Notes under the pieces: generated by a model
Databases searched by the model: none
Told to the model about the DNA's origin: nothing
Seen by the model: only the letters and a program-made list of their open reading frames with translations
Part shown: positions 17,493 through 61,442 of the stretch, piece after piece
How positions within the stretch are numbered: the stretch's first letter is position 1
Layout: each line of letters opens with the position of its first letter
Assembly: GCF_016862795.1 (NCBI RefSeq)
Contig: NZ_BONQ01000162.1
Location: 1 to 63,090, forward strand
Direction of reading: 5' to 3'
Source: Dactylosporangium siamense
GTDB lineage: Bacteria; Actinomycetota; Actinomycetes; Mycobacteriales; Micromonosporaceae
DNA length: 63,090 nucleotides
Program-made: the position numbers and the translations under genes

Positions 17493-18278
17493 ATGGCCGG
17501 CGTGGGGAAATGGACCGGTCGCGCGGCGGCCTTCGCCGACAGTTACGCCCACCTGTGCGCGCACACCGCGCCCGCGCTGCTGGCGGCGGCGGGCCTCGCG
17601 CCCGGGGTGCGGCTGCTCGACGTCGGCACCGGCACCGGCACCGTCGCGGCGCTCGCGGTGGCGGGCGGCGGCCGGGTCACCGCGGTGGACGCGGAGCCGG
17701 GCATGGTCGACCTGGCCCGCGGCAACGTGCCCGGCGCCGAGGTCGTCGAGGGCCGGCTGCCGGACCTGCCGTTCCCCGACGGCGCGTTCGACGCGGTGGT
17801 CGCGAACTTCGTCGTCAACCACGTCACCGACCCGGCCCGCACCGTCGCGGAACTGCTGCGGCTGACCGCGCCCGGCGGACGGGTCGCGGTCACCGTCTGG
17901 CCGCACCCGTCGCCGCCGCTGCAGCACCTGTGGGCCGACGTCATGGCGGCGGTCGGGCTCACCCCGGCACCGTCGATCATCCCGCCGGAGCTGAACTTCG
18001 CCCGCACCGCCGACGGTGTCACCGCCCTGCTCGCCGGCGCCGGTGTCCGGGACGTCGGGTGCCGCACGATCGCCTGGACGCACCACACCGACCTCGAGTC
18101 CTGGTGGGTCGGGCCGAGCAACGGCATGGGCGCGCTCGGCGAGGCCCTCGCCGGCCAGGATCCGGCAACGGTCGCGGCCGCCCGGCGCGAGTACGAGCGC
18201 CTCGCCGCCGCCTATCTCACCGCCGGCGGGGTCCTGGCCCTGCCCACCGCGGCGCTGCTGGCACACGGACTCCGCTGA
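17493..18278 (+). CDS. Class I SAM-dependent methyltransferase
   Basis: A 261-residue methyltransferase with motif I (LLDVGTGTGTVAALA), motif II (VTAVDAEPGM) and the post-motif LPFPDGAFDAVVANFVVNH, as in UbiE/Methyltransf_11 enzymes. The substrate is unknown. It starts ten bases after the receiver gene and may be cotranscribed. The last 30 bases, including the stop, belong to a 52-base segment that is tandemly duplicated just downstream. GTG at 17502 is an alternative start. Confidence 0.85.
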   Translation: MAGVGKWTGRAAAFADSYAHLCAHTAPALLAAAGLAPGVRLLDVGTGTGTVAALAVAGGGRVTAVDAEPGMVDLARGNVPGAEVVEGRLPDLPFPDGAFDAVVANFVVNHVTDPARTVAELLRLTAPGGRVAVTVWPHPSPPLQHLWADVMAAVGLTPAPSIIPPELNFARTADGVTALLAGAGVRDVGCRTIAWTHHTDLESWWVGPSNGMGALGEALAGQDPATVAAARREYERLAAAYLTAGGVLALPTAALLAHGLR

Positions 18279-18352
18279 GCGGACGCCGGAACGGCTGACA
18301 GCGGCGCTGCTGGCACACGGGCTCCGCTGAGCGGACGCGGGAACGGCTGACA
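18249..18352. repeat. 52-base tandem duplication of the methyltransferase 3' end
   Basis: Copies at 18249-18300 and 18301-18352 differ at two positions. Each copy holds the last codons and the TGA of the methyltransferase gene, so the second copy is a relic tail outside the gene. A terminator hairpin follows seven bases later. Confidence 0.93.
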
Positions 18353-18358
18353 GCGCAA

Positions 18359-40043: not shown

Positions 40044-41002
40044 CAGACGATCCGTCCGAACCAGGTGGTCATCAGTATGCCTCCGATGGTCAGCAGCAGC
40101 ACGGCGATCACGGCGGCGGCACCGGTCAGCTCGACCGGCTTCACCTGGGTGGTGAGCCGCAGGTCCAGCTGCTCGTACACGTCGTGGAGGGCCTGGGCGT
40201 TCTCGGCGCGGTGATACGAGCCGGTCGTGGTCTGCGCGACCTCGGTCAGCAGCTCCTCGTCCAGCGACGTCGCGACCTGGAAGCCGTCGACCTCGACGGT
40301 GGCGCCGTCGACGGTGCCGACACCGACGGTCTCGATGTGCACGCCGGCCTTGGCGGCGAGCTGGGCGGCGGCCACGGCGTCGGGCCCGCCGGTGTCCTCG
40401 CCGTCGGACAGGAGCACGATCGTGGCGTTGCCCCAGTACCCGAGGTCCACGGCCGGCTGCCCCTCCTCGGGCAGCTGCGCCGGTTTGCCGGCGATGACGG
40501 TCAGCGAGGCGAGGATCGCCTGGCCGAGTGACGTGCCGCCGTTGATCTGGAGCCGTTTGATCGCGGCGACCGTCGCGGCGTGGTCCTCCGACGGTTGCTG
40601 GGTGGTGAGCGCGCCCTGGTCGAACGCGACCACGCCGATGCTGACGCTGTCCGGTTGCGCCTCGGCGAACTCGATCGCGGCCTGCTGGGCCGCGGCGAGC
40701 CTGGACGGCGCGACGTCCTTGGCGGCCATGCTGTTGGACACGTCGAAGGCGAGGATGACGGTGCCGGCGGCGCGGGCGACCGGGAGGTCCGCCTGGGGCC
40801 GGGCGGTGGACAGCAGCAGCAGGGTCAGCGCGGCCAGGAACAACACGGGCGGCAGGTGCCGCCGGAACCCGTCCCGGTGCGTCGCGAGGCCGGCGGCGGC
40901 CAGGGCCCGGGTCCGCTGCCGTTGCAGCCACCAGTACCCCACCGCGAGGGCGATCGCCACGACCACTCCGACGACCAGCAGGGTCGGATGCTGAAAGCTC
41001 AT
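40043..41002 (-). CDS. Membrane VWA protein (second, BatA/B-like)
   Basis: A 319-residue protein with N-terminal helices (about 6-24 and 50-66), a VWA domain with intact DxSxS (AFDVSNSM) and a C-terminal membrane helix (about 292-312). It is a paralogue of the gene that follows and the two are translationally linked, so they may form a heteromer. GGAGG lies seven bases before the ATG at 41002; upstream open frame is not coding. Confidence 0.88.
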   Translation of the reverse strand: MSFQHPTLLVVGVVVAIALAVGYWWLQRQRTRALAAAGLATHRDGFRRHLPPVLFLAALTLLLLSTARPQADLPVARAAGTVILAFDVSNSMAAKDVAPSRLAAAQQAAIEFAEAQPDSVSIGVVAFDQGALTTQQPSEDHAATVAAIKRLQINGGTSLGQAILASLTVIAGKPAQLPEEGQPAVDLGYWGNATIVLLSDGEDTGGPDAVAAAQLAAKAGVHIETVGVGTVDGATVEVDGFQVATSLDEELLTEVAQTTTGSYHRAENAQALHDVYEQLDLRLTTQVKPVELTGAAAVIAVLLLTIGGILMTTWFGRIV

Positions 41003-41075
41003 GCCGTCACCTCCGCTGCGCTCCGGCGCCGCCCTGCATCCATGATTCGCAGGCCTCCGCTGCGCTGCGGTCTGC

Positions 41076-41996
41076 TCATGCCCGCCGCCGTTTCGACCAG
41101 CGCACCATCTCGACGAGGGCGAGCAGCGGGTCCTGGTCGGTGGAGATCCGGTGCGACGTGACCCGGGACCGGCGCATCGCGGCCGCGACAGCGCCCTCGC
41201 GGACGTCGACCTCTTCCCGCAGCCGCTGCTGGAACATCGGGTCGCTGGTGTCGACAAGGACCTGCTCGCCGGTCTCGGCGTCCTCGACCAGGACCAGCCC
41301 GAGGTCGGGCAGGTCCAGCTCCATCGGGTCGACGACCCGGATCGCGACGACCTCGTGCCGGTGGGTGAGCCGCGACAGCGAGTCCTCCCAGTTGACGGTG
41401 TCGCCGCTGAGGAAGTCGGAGATGACGAAGACCAGGGACCTGCGGCGGGCCTGGGAGGCGGCGAGGCGCAGCATCCCGTCGACGTCGGTGGCCACGCCGA
41501 CCGATGTGTCCTTCCGGTGCGCCAGCTCGTCGGTCGCCTTGCCGATCTCGTGGGCGAGGCGCAGCACGTGGGTCCGGCCGGTGCGGGCCGGGACGACCCG
41601 CTGGAGGCCGTTGTCGTACAGGATCGCGCCCAGCCGGTTGCCGCCCTGCGTGAACAGCCGGGCCAGGCACACGGCGAGCTCGGTCAGCACGCCGTCCTTG
41701 CCGCGGCCGTCGTCGGCGGCGCCGCCGAACCGCATCGACGCCGACAGGTCCAGCACCAGCCACGCGGTGAGCTCGCGGTCCTCGGTGTACTGCCGCACGT
41801 ACGGCTCGTCCAGGCGCGCGGTCACGTTCCAGTCGATGTGGCGCACGTCGTCCTCGTGCGTGTACTCCCGCAGGTCGGCGAAGTCGATGCCACTGCCGCG
41901 GAACACGGTGCGGTAGGCGCCCTGCAGCTGGCCGTCGAGCCGGCGGATCACCTGCCACTCCAGGCGCCGCAGCAGCCGGTCGGGTGCGCTCGCCAT
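41076..41996 (-). CDS. DUF58 protein
   Basis: A 306-residue DUF58 protein with the family signature (FADLREYTHEDDVRHIDWNVTARL) and a degenerate VWA-like fold (VLDLSASM). DUF58 proteins are the usual third component of MoxR/VWA operons, where they probably contact both ATPase and VWA partners. It ends 73 bases before the next gene, a region where CCTCCGCTGCGCT occurs twice. Confidence 0.9.
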   Translation of the reverse strand: MASAPDRLLRRLEWQVIRRLDGQLQGAYRTVFRGSGIDFADLREYTHEDDVRHIDWNVTARLDEPYVRQYTEDRELTAWLVLDLSASMRFGGAADDGRGKDGVLTELAVCLARLFTQGGNRLGAILYDNGLQRVVPARTGRTHVLRLAHEIGKATDELAHRKDTSVGVATDVDGMLRLAASQARRRSLVFVISDFLSGDTVNWEDSLSRLTHRHEVVAIRVVDPMELDLPDLGLVLVEDAETGEQVLVDTSDPMFQQRLREEVDVREGAVAAAMRRSRVTSHRISTDQDPLLALVEMVRWSKRRRA

Positions 41997-45880: not shown

Positions 45881-47125
45881 GTGAGCATCCAGGACGTCGG
45901 GCACCCGTGGGCGACCACGGTGCTGCGCCTCACCCACCGCGTGCGGCAGTGGGACGCGCGGCACCGCTGGGTGCTGGACGCCGGCGGCGTGCTGCTGCTG
46001 TTCCTGGCGTTCGGTGCCCCCGACATCGGCGACCGGCACGACGGTGACGGCCCGCCGATCTCGTGGACCGATCTCCCCGCACCGCAGATGCTGCTGCTGC
46101 AGGCCGCGCTGCTGGTTCCGCTGTACTGGCGGCGCCGGTCGCCGTTCCTCGCGTTCCATGCCGTGCTGGTGGTCTTCATCGTCCAGTGGGCCGCGGGCAT
46201 CATGTTCCGGGCCGACGTCGCGGTGCTGGTCGCGTTGTACAACCTCGTGCTGCACTGCTCGCTGCGCCGCCTGCCGTGGGCCGCGCCGACCCTGCTCGTG
46301 GCATACGTGCTGGTCGTGGCCCGGCTGGCGGACGCGATCGGGACCTGGGACGCCATGTTCGGCCTCGCCGTCTTCGGCACCGCCGCCGTGGCCCTCGGCC
46401 TCGCGATCCGGCTGCGCCGCGCGCAGCTGGCCACGCTGCGGGAGCGGGCCGTGCAGCTGGAGATCGAGCGCGACCAGCGCAGCCGGCTCGCCGCGGCCAC
46501 CGAGCGCACCCGCGTCGCCCGCGAGATGCACGACATCGTCGGGCACAGCCTGTCGGTGATCGTCACGCTCGCCGACGGCGGTGCGTATGCCGCCGACACC
46601 GCGCCCGCGCGCAGCAAGGAGGCGCTCCAGCTGATCGGCGACACCGGCCGCCGGTCCCTGGCCGAGCTGCGCCGCATGCTCGGCGTGCTGCGGGAGCAGG
46701 CCGACGAGCCCGACCTGAGCCCGCAGCCCGGCCTGGCCGACCTCGACCCGCTGTGCCGGCGGGTGCGTGCCGCCGGGCCCCGGGTCGAATACCGCAGCAG
46801 CGGTGACCTCGACGCGCTCGACGCCGGGGTCCAGCTGGCCGCCTACCGGATCGTGCAGGAGGCGCTCACCAACACGCTCAAGCACGCCGGCCCGGACACC
46901 TCGGTGCGCCTGGACCTGTTGGTCGACGGCGACCGGCTGCGGATCGCCGTCCGCGACAACGGGGCGCCCCAGACGTATGGCGAGCCCGGCCACGGCCTGA
47001 TCGGGATGCGGGAGCGCGCCGCGATGTACGGCGGGACCGTGACCGCCGGACCCGCACCGGGGGGAGGATGGAGCGTCGAGGCCGACCTGGACCTGCGCCC
47101 AACCGTGGAAAGCGACGACGCATGA
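45881..47125 (+). CDS. Sensor histidine kinase (NarX/DesK type)
   Basis: A 414-residue kinase with four to six N-terminal membrane helices (about 30-185), a coiled segment, HisKA_3 box (VAREMHDIVGHSLSVIV) and HATPase with N-box EALTNTLKHAG and G-box GHGLIGMRERAAMYGG. It lies 43 bases after the ABC permease gene and overlaps the regulator gene by ATGA. The kinase/regulator/exporter set resembles resistance modules in which export activity is sensed at the membrane. Confidence 0.9.
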   Translation: MSIQDVGHPWATTVLRLTHRVRQWDARHRWVLDAGGVLLLFLAFGAPDIGDRHDGDGPPISWTDLPAPQMLLLQAALLVPLYWRRRSPFLAFHAVLVVFIVQWAAGIMFRADVAVLVALYNLVLHCSLRRLPWAAPTLLVAYVLVVARLADAIGTWDAMFGLAVFGTAAVALGLAIRLRRAQLATLRERAVQLEIERDQRSRLAAATERTRVAREMHDIVGHSLSVIVTLADGGAYAADTAPARSKEALQLIGDTGRRSLAELRRMLGVLREQADEPDLSPQPGLADLDPLCRRVRAAGPRVEYRSSGDLDALDAGVQLAAYRIVQEALTNTLKHAGPDTSVRLDLLVDGDRLRIAVRDNGAPQTYGEPGHGLIGMRERAAMYGGTVTAGPAPGGGWSVEADLDLRPTVESDDA

Positions 47126-47775
47126 TCACCGTGCTCATCGTGGACGACCAGCCACTGCAGCGGCTGGGCTTCCGCATGCTGCTGGAGAGCAACCCGGACA
47201 CCGACGTCGTCGGCGAGGCCGGCAACGGCGCCGAGGCGGTGCGCCGCACCACCGACCTGCGTCCCGACGTGGTGCTGATGGACGTGCGGATGCCCGGCAT
47301 GGACGGCATCGAGGCGACCCGGCGGATCGTGGAGGCCGGCGGCCGCTCCCGCATCCTCATGCTCACCACATTCGACCTCGACGAATACGCGCACGCGGCG
47401 CTGCGGGCCGGGGCCAGCGGCTTCCTGCTCAAGGACGCCCACCCGGAGGAGCTCCTGGCCGGCATCCGGGCGGTCGCCGCGGGTGACGCGGTCATCGCGC
47501 CCGCGCTCACCCGCCGGCTCCTCGACGCGTTCGCGCCCCACCTCGGCTCGTCGCCCGTCGATGATCCGCGCCTGGCATCGCTCACCGAGCGGGAGCGGGA
47601 GATCCTCGTCGCGATCGGGCACGGCTGGACCAACGGGGAGATCGCCGAGCGGCTCGTGCTGTCCGAGTCGACGGTCAAGACGCACGTCGGGCGGGTCCTG
47701 GCGAAGGTCGGCGCCCGCGACCGGATCCAGGCCGTCATCTTCGCCTACGACCTCGGCCTGACCCGGCCGCGCTGA
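47122..47775 (+). CDS. NarL-type response regulator
   Basis: A 217-residue regulator with acidic pocket D8-D9, phosphoacceptor D54 (VVLMDVRMPG), and a C-terminal LuxR helix-turn-helix (LTEREREILVAIGHGWTNGE). It is cotranslated with the kinase. Its likely DNA target is the ABC operon promoter, possibly the repeats at 43978-44025; this is inference. Confidence 0.92.
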   Translation: MITVLIVDDQPLQRLGFRMLLESNPDTDVVGEAGNGAEAVRRTTDLRPDVVLMDVRMPGMDGIEATRRIVEAGGRSRILMLTTFDLDEYAHAALRAGASGFLLKDAHPEELLAGIRAVAAGDAVIAPALTRRLLDAFAPHLGSSPVDDPRLASLTEREREILVAIGHGWTNGEIAERLVLSESTVKTHVGRVLAKVGARDRIQAVIFAYDLGLTRPR

Positions 47776-47848
47776 CATGTCCTTTCCAGAGACTCCTGTT
47801 CGTTCCAAGGTTGAGGGGCCACCCCGGTCCCGCGGAAGGAGCGGTCCG

Positions 47849-48196
47849 ATGCCGCAGTATCTCGCCCTGACCTACACCGCCGACGTCGACTGGTGGGCGC
47901 CCGAGCAGGCCGCCGAGCTGGCCGAGTATCGCCGGTTCGCGGTCGACCACGCCGGCAGCCTCCGCGCCAGCGCGGTGCTGCACCCCACCGCCACCGCCAC
48001 GGTGGTCCGGGTCGAGGGCGCCCGCGGCGGTCGCGTCGTCACGACCGACGGCCCCTACGCCGAGACCAAGGAGGCCCTGACCGGCTACTACCTGATCGAG
48101 GCCGCCGACCTGGACGAGGCGGTCGCGGTCGCCGCCGAGATCCCGGCGGCGTGGGGCGGGGCCGTCGAGGTCCGGCCGGTCATCGTGGCCAAGTGA
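47849..48196 (+). CDS. YCII-related DGPF protein linked to ECF42 sigma factor
   Basis: A 115-residue YCII-fold protein of the DGPF group; the signature appears here as TTDGPYAETKEALTGYYLIE. DGPF genes are the hallmark neighbours and targets of ECF42 sigma factors. Their biochemical role is unknown. GGAAGGAG lies seven bases before the ATG. The stop originally overlaps the sigma-factor start motif as GTGA (48193-48196), but the sigma start is now displaced by the tandem repeat. Confidence 0.87.
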   Translation: MPQYLALTYTADVDWWAPEQAAELAEYRRFAVDHAGSLRASAVLHPTATATVVRVEGARGGRVVTTDGPYAETKEALTGYYLIEAADLDEAVAVAAEIPAAWGGAVEVRPVIVAK

Positions 48197-48252
48197 CGGT
48201 TGAGGCGGTCGCCGAGACGGTCCGGGTCAAGGGGGCACGGAGTGACGGTTGA
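48193..48252 (+). other. Decoy ORF 1 (19 codons) from repeat copy 1
   Basis: GTG at 48193 overlaps the DGPF stop as GTGA. Reading runs through copy 1 and ends at TGA 48250-48252 inside copy 2. The peptide copies the sigma-factor N-terminus (VTVEAVAETVRVKGA) and then stops. Termination falls 11 bases inside the next decoy ORF, which would permit reinitiation. Confidence 0.6.
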
Positions 48253-48301
48253 GGCGGTCGCCGAGACGATCCGGGTCGAGGGGGCACCGAGTGACGGTTG
48301 A
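48242..48301 (+). other. Decoy ORF 2 (19 codons) from repeat copy 2
   Basis: GTG at 48242 reads copy 2 and ends at TGA 48299-48301 inside copy 3, overlapping the true sigma start (48291) by 11 bases. It is the second step in a possible chain of coupled terminations and restarts. Confidence 0.6.
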
Positions 48302-49514
48302 GGCGGTCGCCGAGACGATCCGGGTCGAGGGGGCGCGGATCCTCGCGACCCTGATCCGGACCGTCGGCGACGTGCAGATCGCGGAGGACGCCGTCCAGGA
48401 AGCGGTCGTCTCGGCGCTCGCCGCCTGGCCGGTGTCCGGGGTGCCGCCGCAGCCGCGCGCCTGGCTCACCGTCACCGCCCGGCGCAAGGCCATCGACATC
48501 CTGCGCCGCGAGCAGGCCCGCCGCGGCAAGGAGGAGGAGGGCGGCCGGATGATCGACCTCGCTCGCTCCGACCTGCCCTCCGACGCCGTGGTCCACGACG
48601 ACCTGCTGCGCCTCATCTTCACCTGCTGCCACCCGACCCTGTCGCCCCCGACCCAGGTCGCCCTCGCGCTGCGCACCCTGTGCGGCCTGTCCCCCGCGCA
48701 GATCGCCGGCGTCCTGCTCACCACGGAGGCCGCCACGGAGAAGCGCCTCACCAGGGCCAGGCAGAAGATCGCGGCGGCGCGCATCCCGTACCGGGTGCCG
48801 CCGCCGGACGAGCTCCCCGACCGGCTGCCGGCCGTCTGCGCCGTCATCCACAGCCTCTACACCGCCGGCCACGCCCCGGTCGGTGGCGGCTCGGCCGTCG
48901 ACGTCGACGCGTGCGCCGAAGCGGTCCGGCTCGCCGAGCTCCTGCACGGTCTGCTCCCCGACCAGCCGACCCCGGCCGCGGTCCTCGCGCTGCTCCTGCT
49001 CACCGAGGCCCGCCGCCCGGCCCGCCTGTCCGCTACCGGCGAGGTCGTCACCCTGGACCGCCAGGACCGCAGCCACTGGTCCGGCGCGGCGATCGCCCGC
49101 GGGATCGCGCTGCTCAACGCCTCCCTGCACGCCTCGTCCCGGCGCGCGGACGCGTATCAGCTACAGGCCGCCATCGCCGCGGAGCACGCCCGCGCCGCCT
49201 CCTACGACGGCACCGACTGGCCGGAGATCGTCCGGCTGTACGACCTGCTCATGTCCGTCGCCCCGAGCCCGGCGGCCGGTCTGGCCCGCGCCGTCGCGGT
49301 GGCGGAGGCGGCCGGCACCGACGCCGGTCTCGCGCTGCTCGCCGGCCTGCCGCCGTCGCCACGCTGGCACGCGGTCCGGGCCGACCTGCTCGCCCGCGCC
49401 GGCCGCTACGCCGAGGCCGTCGCCGCGCTCACCGCGTCGCTCGACGGCCCGGCCACCGACCCGGAGCGCCGCCACCGCACGCGACGCCTCGCCGAGCTGA
49501 GGGAGCTGGTCTGA
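48291..49514 (+). CDS. ECF42-type RNA polymerase sigma factor with C-terminal TPR domain
   Basis: A 407-residue sigma factor. Region 2 (about 12-80, ILATLIRTVGDVQIAEDAVQEA and AWLTVTARRKAIDILRR) and region 4 (about 115-165, LSPAQIAGVLLTTEAATEKRL) are followed by a long helical domain (about 185-400). That domain has tetratricopeptide character (LYDLLMSVAPSPAAGLARAVAV). This plan, together with the upstream DGPF gene and lack of an anti-sigma gene, defines the ECF42 group, in which the C-terminal extension controls activity. The true start is taken as GTG 48291 in the third repeat copy; two upstream copies carry out-of-frame starts. Translation may therefore be lower than in the ancestral, directly coupled arrangement. 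Confidence 0.9.
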   Translation: MTVEAVAETIRVEGARILATLIRTVGDVQIAEDAVQEAVVSALAAWPVSGVPPQPRAWLTVTARRKAIDILRREQARRGKEEEGGRMIDLARSDLPSDAVVHDDLLRLIFTCCHPTLSPPTQVALALRTLCGLSPAQIAGVLLTTEAATEKRLTRARQKIAAARIPYRVPPPDELPDRLPAVCAVIHSLYTAGHAPVGGGSAVDVDACAEAVRLAELLHGLLPDQPTPAAVLALLLLTEARRPARLSATGEVVTLDRQDRSHWSGAAIARGIALLNASLHASSRRADAYQLQAAIAAEHARAASYDGTDWPEIVRLYDLLMSVAPSPAAGLARAVAVAEAAGTDAGLALLAGLPPSPRWHAVRADLLARAGRYAEAVAALTASLDGPATDPERRHRTRRLAELRELV

Positions 49515-49515
49515 C

Positions 49516-49800
49516 ATGTTCGACTTCTCGCCCCTGCTGGAGCTGTTCCCGGACGACGAGGAGGGCCGGATGCTGCGCTCCCCGGGCCTGCGGACGGGCG
49601 GCCGGTTCTACGCCTTCGCCTCCGGCGACGACGTGATCGTGAAGCTTCCGGCAGCGCGGGTGGCCGAGCTGATCGCCTCCGGTGCGGGCCTGCCGTGCTC
49701 CCCGCGCCCGGGCCGCCCGATGCGCGAGTGGGTCCGGGTCCCGGCGCGGGACTGCCTGCCGCTGGTCCTGGAGGCCCGGGCCTTCCTCACGCGGGCGTGA
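49516..49800 (+). CDS. Small YjbR/TfoX-like protein
   Basis: A 94-residue protein (GRMLRSPGLRTGGRFYAFAS, VIVKLPAARVAELIASG, PMREWVRVP) resembling the MmcQ/YjbR and TfoX N-terminal folds found in many actinobacteria. Biochemical function is unknown. It starts one base after the sigma-factor stop and is surely in the same operon. Its stop codon lies in the loop of a perfect 7-base hairpin (49791-49807). Confidence 0.65.
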   Translation: MFDFSPLLELFPDDEEGRMLRSPGLRTGGRFYAFASGDDVIVKLPAARVAELIASGAGLPCSPRPGRPMREWVRVPARDCLPLVLEARAFLTRA

Positions 49801-49820
49801 CGCCCGCAGCCACGCGGGCG
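49791..49820. terminator. Overlapping hairpins at the end of the ECF operon
   Basis: GCGGGCG (49791-49797) pairs with CGCCCGC (49801-49807), with the stop TGA as loop. Alternatively the same CGCCCGC pairs with GCGGGCG at 49814-49820. Further GCGGGCG copies in the repeat array give more pairing choices. They are candidate terminators between convergent genes. Confidence 0.6.
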
Positions 49821-49899
49821 TTCCGCAGACACGCGGGCGTGAGGCACCGCAGTCAGGCGGGCGTTCCGCAGACACGCGGGCGTGAGGCACCGCGGTCAG
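49814..49899. repeat. 43-base tandem repeat between convergent genes
   Basis: Two copies (49814-49856 and 49857-49899) differ at one position; a partial third copy follows into the GDPD gene end. The unit contains GCGGGCG twice, and the end of copy 2 includes the stop codon (49896-49898) of the minus-strand GDPD gene. The array fills the 95-base gap between the two genes. Confidence 0.92.
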
Positions 49900-50579
49900 G
49901 CGGGCGTGAGGCTCCGCAGCAGCGGCAGGTTCTTGCTGATGATGCCGGACACTCCCACCGCGCGGGCCTGCGCCAGCTCCGCCTCGGTGTCCACCGACCA
50001 GGCCATGATGAGGTCCGTATTCTGGTGCAGCTCGGCGACGACGGCCGCGGTGAGCAGGCTCAGCCGGATCGACAACCCGTCGACCCGCTGGCGCTTGACC
50101 AGCTGCCGCACCTGCTCGAGCTGGCGCCGGCTGCCCGCCGAGTAGACCCGCCGGATGTGCGGCTGGTCCTCGAACGCGGCCAGCATCCCCCAGTCGCGCG
50201 TGCACACGGTCACCGGCACGCCCGGCGCCACCTCCCGCAGCACCTCCGCCGTCCGCGGCGCGACGGCCTGCCACGGCCCCTTGAGGTCGAGCATCAGCCG
50301 CGAGTCCCCGGCCGCTGTGGTGAGGATCTCCGCCAGCAGCGGCACCGGCACGTCGCGCCGCCGGGTGACGTCGCGCCACGGCTCCCACAGCAGCCGCCGC
50401 CCGAGCGCCTTGGCGTGCCGCATCTCCAGCGCGCCCCGGTACAGCCTGACATCGGCCTCGACCAGGTCGACGCCGGCGTCGAGAGCGTCCCGCAGGTCCG
50501 CCAGCGTATTGCCCGCACGGTGCGCGATCCGGATCACGCAGTCACGATAGCCGCTCAGATACTTCACCGGGCGAATCAT
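49896..50579 (-). CDS. Glycerophosphodiester phosphodiesterase-like protein
   Basis: A 227-residue GDPD-family TIM barrel: IRIAHRAGNTLADL, VDLVEADVRLYRG (metal-binding E-x-D), MRHAKAL and LMLDLKGPWQ correspond to the conserved histidine, acidic and lysine positions. These enzymes cleave glycerophosphodiesters to glycerol-3-phosphate and alcohol. The ATG at 50579 overlaps the MFS stop (ATGA), but homology begins at GTG 50537, so the first 14 residues are uncertain. The stop lies in the tandem-repeat array. Confidence 0.8.
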   Translation of the reverse strand: MIRPVKYLSGYRDCVIRIAHRAGNTLADLRDALDAGVDLVEADVRLYRGALEMRHAKALGRRLLWEPWRDVTRRRDVPVPLLAEILTTAAGDSRLMLDLKGPWQAVAPRTAEVLREVAPGVPVTVCTRDWGMLAAFEDQPHIRRVYSAGSRRQLEQVRQLVKRQRVDGLSIRLSLLTAAVVAELHQNTDLIMAWSVDTEAELAQARAVGVSGIISKNLPLLRSLTPA

Positions 50580-60518: not shown

Positions 60519-61442
60519 TTACAACCGGGTCTCCAGCCAGGCGAGCGCACCGCGGCCGAGGCGGAGTTTGGCCTCGGTGATCGGCGTACGGCCGGCCGCC
60601 AGCCCACCGGCGAGCAGGAAACCCGCGTGGGCGGCCAGGACCCCGGTGACGGCGCCGCCGGTGGGCACGTACGGCTCCGGGTCGACACCGTCGGCGGCGA
60701 CGCTGGAGATGACGGCGCCGCCGGTGGGCACGTACGGCTCCGGATCGACACCGTCGGCAGCGACGCTGGACAGGAACGCGACCAGGTCGATGACCGGCGA
60801 GCCGAGTCGGGCGTGCGGCCAGTCGACGAACACCACCCGCGCCGCGGTCAGCAGGATGTTGTGGGGGTACAGGTCGCCGTGCACCAGCGCGTTCCCGCGG
60901 GCGGCTTCGATGCCGTCGCGCTCCAGCTCGATGAGGCACGGCAGGTCGTCGGCCGCCCACGGCGCGAGCCGCCGCAGCCCGGCCACGCGGGTCGGATCCG
61001 TGGCGAGGTCGGCCCAGCCGCCGAGGCGGGGATGCTCGGCCGGAAGCCTGATGGGCGACGGGATGGCCAGGTTCGCGATGGCCTCCACCACCCGCCGGAT
61101 GTCGGTGGGCGTCGGGCCCGGAGCGGCACCGTCGACGTCCTCGAAGGTGAGCACGCACCAGCGGCCGTCGTCGTACCCACCCTGCCAACGCGGCGCCGGC
61201 ACGCTGTCCGGCAGCGCGGCGCCGACCTCCGCCTCGGTCCGGTAGGCGTCGACCTCGTGCGGCCACGTGCCGGCGTCGATCGCCTTCACGAAGCGGCGCT
61301 CGCCGTCGGTGCGGGTGAGCCGCGAGGCGAAGCCGGGCGAGAAGCCGCCCGGGCAGCTCTCCGCACGGGCGACGGGTCCGCCGATGACCTCCTCGACGGC
61401 CCGGCGAACTTCGGCGGGCAGGTCCTGCCACGTGGGTCTCAT
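60519..61442 (-). CDS. Aminoglycoside phosphotransferase-like kinase (APH)
   Basis: A 307-residue APH/choline-kinase fold protein with the catalytic loop LVHGDLYPHNILL (Asp base) and the DFG-like metal site VFVDWPHARLGSP. These kinases phosphorylate aminoglycosides, homoserine, macrolides or other hydroxyls; the substrate here is unknown. A 63-base in-frame duplication repeats 21 residues (SSVAADGVDPEPYVPTGGAV) between the metal site and the C-terminal helices. It is divergent from a MarR gene whose operators also cover its promoter. Confidence 0.82.
   Translation of the reverse strand: MRPTWQDLPAEVRRAVEEVIGGPVARAESCPGGFSPGFASRLTRTDGERRFVKAIDAGTWPHEVDAYRTEAEVGAALPDSVPAPRWQGGYDDGRWCVLTFEDVDGAAPGPTPTDIRRVVEAIANLAIPSPIRLPAEHPRLGGWADLATDPTRVAGLRRLAPWAADDLPCLIELERDGIEAARGNALVHGDLYPHNILLTAARVVFVDWPHARLGSPVIDLVAFLSSVAADGVDPEPYVPTGGAVISSVAADGVDPEPYVPTGGAVTGVLAAHAGFLLAGGLAAGRTPITEAKLRLGRGALAWLETRL
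60648..60770. repeat. 63-base in-frame tandem duplication inside the APH gene
   Basis: Copies begin at 60648 and 60711 and differ at a few bases. They encode two tandem runs of the same 21 residues. The unit is 63 bases, a multiple of three, so the frame is kept and the protein gains one copy. Confidence 0.93.

Follow-up and report, generated by a model that had tools for sequence, protein, structure and literature searches.

The ECF42 locus and its 49-bp array

The window, by which we mean the whole stretch of DNA analyzed here, comprises 63,090 bases and is one entire contig of a draft Dactylosporangium siamense genome (12.7 Mb, 296 contigs), probably that of a soil actinobacterium. In a contig search that may omit this genome and its near relatives, the σ alignment has its best match, at 71%, in a Dactylosporangium MAG. 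On its plus strand, a gene encoding a 115-aa YCII-related protein (47849 to 48196; Pfam PF03795, E = 1.1e-14) is followed by a σ gene of 407 aa (48291 to 49514). We take the name DGPF-type to apply to this partner gene, the motif of which reads DGPY rather than DGPF at this locus. The σ gene encodes regions 2 and 4_2 (Sigma70_r2, PF04542, E = 1.3e-9; Sigma70_r4_2, PF08281, E = 4e-9) as well as a long C-terminal extension that matches DUF6596 (PF20239, E = 3e-27) at residues 178 to 278 of 407. These domains and the adjoining YCII/DGPF gene, from which the group name is taken, indicate that the σ factor is probably of the ECF42 type. Conservation of a YCII-domain neighbor is noted in a review (PMC8999054); the present locus has the same domains and the same neighbor but differs in its triplicated start. 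DUF6596 genes are numerous in the genus, with 8 to 21 matches per genome in seven genomes, a few of which are split matches of one gene. The σ gene is itself followed by a 94-aa gene (49516 to 49800, plus strand), which matches no Pfam family at E 0.001; judged by eye from the translations, the closest σ orthologue is likewise followed by a similar ORF. A scan of positions 47000 to 50000 against Rfam gave no match at E values up to 1.

The junction between the partner and σ genes is occupied by three tandem copies of a 49-bp unit, located on the plus strand at 48192 to 48240, 48241 to 48289, and 48290 to 48338. The initial annotation had reported these copies from the sequence, and they are real: 94 of 99 positions match at a lag of 49, whereas triplet-block shuffling of the whole window (10 replicates, all lags from 20 to 120) gave a highest count of 51 to 56 matches over 99 bases. 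TRF likewise returns a single array (48192 to 48339) with a period of 49, 3.0 copies, 94% matches, and a score of 268. The unit consists of the σ gene's own start region and N-terminal coding sequence, such that each copy carries a GTG start (48193, 48242, and 48291; hereafter GTG1 to GTG3). The third copy is contiguous with the rest of the σ gene, the N terminus of which resembles those of its orthologues, and the TGA stop codon of the partner gene (48194 to 48196) overlaps GTG1 as GTGA. From the GTG of copy 1 and that of copy 2 run ORFs of 19 codons plus TGA (ORF1, 48193 to 48252; ORF2, 48242 to 48301; both on the plus strand), and each of these ends 11 bases inside the next start, exactly as had been claimed for the two so-called decoys. 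In addition, every copy contains a TTG seven bases after its GTG, a feature absent from the initial annotation. In copies 2 and 3 this TTG overlaps a decoy stop as TTGA. The TTG at 48249, which overlaps the ORF1 stop at −4, lies in the σ frame and opens a 421-aa form of the ORF (48249 to 49514, plus strand) with 14 extra residues, and the TTG at 48298, located at the ORF2 stop, leads in a frame walk to an 18-aa dead end (48298 to 48354, plus strand).

The GTG reading frame of the σ gene is set by the last copy alone, a point on which the initial annotation was right. Its further suggestion, that repeat slippage could switch the gene, is not supported. Whatever the copy number, the last GTG remains in frame with σ; slippage thus cannot remove the σ ORF, and any effect on output would be graded at most.

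Origin and distribution of the array

A single-copy state in which the partner stop and the σ start overlap as GTGA had been postulated as the ancestral arrangement, and it is observed in the closest orthologue. In an orthologue search in which five candidates per genome were scored, 8 of 354 family genomes (D. siamense included) gave matches at E 1e-105 or better. The closest, locus L010 of a congener (genome G001, contig C9), is 84% identical at the amino acid level and contains one copy and no repeat; the orthologues L039 (71%) and L040 (70%) also lack the array. The σ gene is identical to that of L010 at 1008 of 1175 sites (14% differ) and the partner gene to that of G001 at 307 of 345 (11% differ). 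Since the copies differ from each other at two to three of 49 positions while the σ genes differ at 14%, the array is not brand new; G001 does not have it. The σ ORF is intact and its dN/dS against L010 is 0.31 over 407 codons, a ratio that spans the whole time since the split of the two lineages and not only the time with the array.

The copies are distinguished at unit positions 29, 38, 46, and 48 only. At position 29, copies 2 and 3 have A, while copy 1, L010, L039, and L040 have G; at position 46, an A is common to copies 1 and 2. Position 38 sets copy 1 apart (A) and position 48 copy 2 (C). Positions 29 and 46 conflict, as one groups copies 2 and 3 and the other copies 1 and 2, and no simple duplication tree yields both. 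A duplication, followed by divergence and then by an unequal exchange that left a chimeric middle copy, would explain both sites; parallel mutation is the alternative, and the two-step history is read from four variable sites. The same differences bear on whether the triplication might be an assembly artefact, as could be suspected of a draft in 296 contigs. A false repeat made from identical reads would not give copies that differ mutually at two to three sites. Indeed, the four variable sites are distributed among the copies as would be expected after two rounds of expansion, and an assembly error is therefore very improbable.

To place the array among related junctions, 238 ECF42 loci were surveyed, which reduced to 216 genes distinct at their start and to 186 with the partner upstream. 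The 30 genes for which no partner was found upstream were excluded from the junction count; loci L167 and L179, which share their inner 120 bases, come from two genomes and were both kept. Of the 186 loci with the partner upstream, the present one alone has the 49-bp array (0 of the other 185), and this survey rules out its conservation across ECF42 loci. An array with a TRF score of at least 80 overlaps the interval from the partner stop to the σ start in six of the 186 loci (L009, L125, L078, L092, L212, and L260), and further short or weak arrays are listed below this cut. Only L009, which is the present locus, and L125, which is the same locus as L027 of G001, have arrays that span the interval from stop to start. 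The arrays at L212, L260, L078, and L092 are different, with periods of 6 to 54 bp, and do not reach from stop to start. L107 of Microbispora corallina falls below the cut (score 76), yet its array does span the interval: a 12-bp, ATGAACGGCGAC-like unit, in frame and present in 4.9 copies, repeats the ATGA stop/start. It thus resembles the D. siamense array in that the repeat runs from the partner stop into the σ start and multiplies the start codon. However, because its period is a multiple of three, it provides in-frame alternative starts and not frame-shifted decoys. With the present locus, L027/L125, and L107, repeated starts are found at the junction in at least 3 of the 186 loci, each built from its own unit.

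Translation signals and routes to the σ start

The duplication has placed a purine tract from the preceding copy before the σ GTG (GAGGGGG, 48278 to 48284), and a similar tract precedes GTG2 (AAGGGGG, 48229 to 48235), both on the plus strand. In a simple thermodynamic scan, the anti-Shine–Dalgarno (SD) duplex at the σ start reaches −10.7 kcal/mol, compared with −4.0 at GTG1, taken to represent the single-copy context, and −2.9 at L010; the medians are −4.8 for 728 called genes and −3.9 for random sites. These energies include G-U wobble, and the strict SD match at the σ start is GAGG only (4 nt, spacing 9). Strict matches of at least 4 nt precede 34% of genes and 24% of random sites. Moreover, the array-free orthologues do not uniformly have a weak SD, as L040 reaches −9.5 (L039, −3.9). 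The scan is therefore no more than suggestive that the duplication possibly gave the σ GTG a ribosome site of its own, a signal that is weak under the strict test. For arrays of one, two, and three copies, the calculated probability that the start codon of the last GTG is unpaired is 0.35, 0.81, and 0.69 with 35-base flanks and 0.60, 0.74, and 0.66 with 60-base flanks, so that no robust trend emerges.

The initial annotation had read the junction as a chain in which ribosomes leave the partner gene and restart on both decoys in turn before reaching σ, with loss at each restart, so that copy number would act as a rheostat. The ORFs and overlaps on which this chain would depend exist, and repeated starts are present at the same junction in two other ECF42 loci. 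Mycobacterial data lend it further plausibility: variable tandem repeats upstream of a gene are reported to correlate with its mRNA level (PMC2734929), and PMC12548453 describes an ORF inside MIRUs that is coupled to the downstream gene. Coupling from decoy to decoy, however, would need a −11 geometry. In 863 kb of the genome, with starts taken from a simple GC3-based caller, 214 same-strand pairs have gaps below 60, and the same-strand overlaps comprise 78 cases at −4, 5 at −8, 6 at −1, and 3 at −13/−14, but none at −11 among the called same-strand gene pairs. A larger overlap is also reported to lower coupling efficiency (PMC12548453), and the σ start may have its own ribosome site. The rheostat is an unlikely account of the array.

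The prevalence of −4 overlaps, by far the commonest class in the 863 kb, fits a different path, in which ribosomes would pass from the partner gene to decoy 1 and from there to the TTG at 48249, skipping decoy 2 and producing a σ factor longer by 14 residues; such a path would reach σ at odd copy numbers only. A walk restricted to −4 restarts does reach σ for one, three, and five copies and runs into dead ends for two, four, and six. Upstream of the TTG, strict matching finds 4 nt (GGAG, spacing 5), and the duplex energy is −9.8 at spacing 12; in addition, L040 contains an in-frame ATG 14 codons upstream of the compared start, and because of this ATG a longer σ form with a basic extension is possible in that orthologue. 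Yet TTG starts are used in only 2 of the 78 called −4 overlaps, the 14-aa extension from 48249 shows no sequence conservation with L010, L039, or L040, and the in-frame GTG remains usable at every copy number. We consider this path quite improbable. Even less probable is its extension to a parity gate, in which −4-only restarts would let odd copy numbers reach σ and even ones lose it, so that slippage by a single unit would flip the gene between coupled and uncoupled states; with three or five copies, the protein would also gain a basic N-terminal extension of 14 residues.

Relation to MIRU-like repeats and meaning of the array

The closest precedent for the 49-bp array is the mycobacterial MIRU. 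According to PMC2734929, MIRUs are 40 to 100 bp long and lie at 41 places in H37Rv; in PMC12548453, they are short repeat units at stop/start junctions, containing an ORF tied to the gene that follows. A further candidate source, PMC4255298, was set aside, as its displayed matches to "miru" derive from the species name mirum. ORF1 and ORF2 likewise bridge stop to start within a short unit. In contrast to MIRUs, the 49-bp unit consists of the start of the gene itself and was not found dispersed: a search of the D. siamense genome with the 401 bp from 48100 to 48500, in which 40 of 948 first-look candidates were scored, returned the query itself and 13 weaker partial matches (65 to 94% identity over 28 to 186 bases), with no full copy of the array. 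The GTG-started decoys also overlap the next start by 11 bases and not by 4; a −4 NTGA is found at the left end of ORF1 (GTGA) and not at both ends of the unit ORFs, and the −4 TTGA at which these ORFs end leads out of the GTG frame.

The genus does contain a MIRU-like repeat family. At the G001 ECF42 locus L027 (contig C22), three 89-bp units lie between the ATGA partner stop and the σ ATG; each opens an ATG ORF, the TGA of which overlaps the next ATG as ATGA, and GGAGG is located 7 bases before that ATG. No such array is present in the other 29 of 30 ECF42 loci fetched, among them a second D. siamense locus (L126), which has GTGA. The 89-bp unit is dispersed, with at least 61 matches in G001, 73 in G006, 31 in G000, and 21 in G002 (E 0.001, each figure a lower bound). 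We examined 48 arrays chosen from the better matches (5 from G000, 3 from G002, and 20 each from G001 and G006). In 34 of these 48 arrays the upstream gene has its called stop at the unit TGA, and in 40 an NTGA directly follows the array, the two features coinciding in 26; a called gene start falls exactly at that NTGA in 21. Under a stricter pattern, which favors 89-base units with −4 overlaps, all 28 of 28 units are 89 bases long with an exact −4 start-to-stop ORF. The family is often tandem and found mostly at stop/start junctions, with a 30-codon ORF and GGAGG. With a G006 copy as the query (E 1e-10), matches were obtained in all seven genus genomes and in none of 347 other family genomes; among 397 genomes drawn from the order (E 1e-6), the two that matched were D. 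siamense itself and one of another genus, the latter through two partial stretches, each about 35 bases long. Both searches scored two candidates per genome, and the absences apply to those scored. The window holds a 77-bp member on the minus strand (41003 to 41079; ATGAGC...GGAGGTGACGGC, then ATGAGC), which carries the called stop of the gene at 41076 to 41996 (minus strand). Its 26-aa ORF has −4 overlaps and leads to an ATG before the next gene, for which the caller places the start further in, at 40966. No description of the 89-bp family was found among the literature matches listed, and it possibly represents an undescribed MIRU-like family outside mycobacteria.

The presence of this family in the genus and in the window raises the prospect that the 49-bp array is itself an inserted dispersed repeat, as at L027. 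The identity of the unit with the σ gene's own N-terminal coding sequence argues against such an insertion, as do the outcome of the own-genome search among the candidates scored and the unit length, which is 1 modulo 3 compared with 2 in the 89-bp family; its probability is close to negligible.

Other known systems share single aspects of the locus. VNTR3239 likewise consists of tandem repeats directly before a gene, M. tuberculosis fpg1, and in a 2009 paper longer repeats there are reported to correlate with higher mRNA, the lowest level being that of the strain labeled repeat type 6, a type number that may not track length (PMC2734929). That case rests on strains with different repeats, whereas the ECF42 array is known from one strain. 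In Streptomyces SigR, which has an unusual GTC start, σ output is likewise set at translation initiation but by a different mechanism (PMC5472188). The initial annotation was aware of no earlier description of such a case for ECF42, and nothing contradicts it among the matches listed in the literature on ECF42, DGPF, repeats, and coupling. The principle of control by repeats or coupled ORFs is already known; the 49-bp triplication is the sole one of its kind in the surveyed loci.

The genome has a general background of tandem arrays, and this counts in favor of a local origin. A TRF scan (period of at least 30, 88% matches, score 120) of the window plus 800 kb, 863 kb in all, found 15 arrays, 4 of them in the window. 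Further arrays in the window are a 43-bp array of 2.8 copies that begins just before the stop of the gene after σ (49788 to 49907), a 52-bp array of 2.1 copies that spans a called stop codon at 18278 (18249 to 18355), and a 63-bp duplication of 2.0 copies inside a called coding sequence (60647 to 60770). Two of the 15 arrays touch a called start codon, and only the 49-bp array spans a co-directional stop-to-start junction.

The best explanation of the locus as a whole, to which we lean with some reserve, is that the array grew locally from one copy to two and later from two to three, through unequal recombination or slippage between diverged copies. GTG3 would remain the main start of σ translation, with the purine tract from the preceding copy and ribosomes arriving from the upstream ORFs both assisting initiation there. 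The decoy ORFs would then be by-products, and the array, instead of having evolved as a switch, would be tolerated, being either neutral or of mild tuning effect. Against this explanation stand the weak strict SD match and the −9.5 kcal/mol that L040 attains in its array-free state. Because the 49-bp array is the sole junction-spanning one of the 15, and because two further ECF42 loci have unrelated junction arrays, there is room for selection. A duplication that the gene tolerates, and that may have created a new ribosome site, appears likelier than a regulatory reading of the array, which is possible.

The triplication is thus probably a local accident that the gene tolerates, although copy number could tune the amount of protein. 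If copy number alters σ output, a regulator strictly coupled to its operon partner could, by simple tandem duplication of the coupled start codon, become independently and tunably translated. The MIRU-like family of the genus, found once before an ECF42 gene, offers a setting in which coupled minicistrons could be studied outside mycobacteria.
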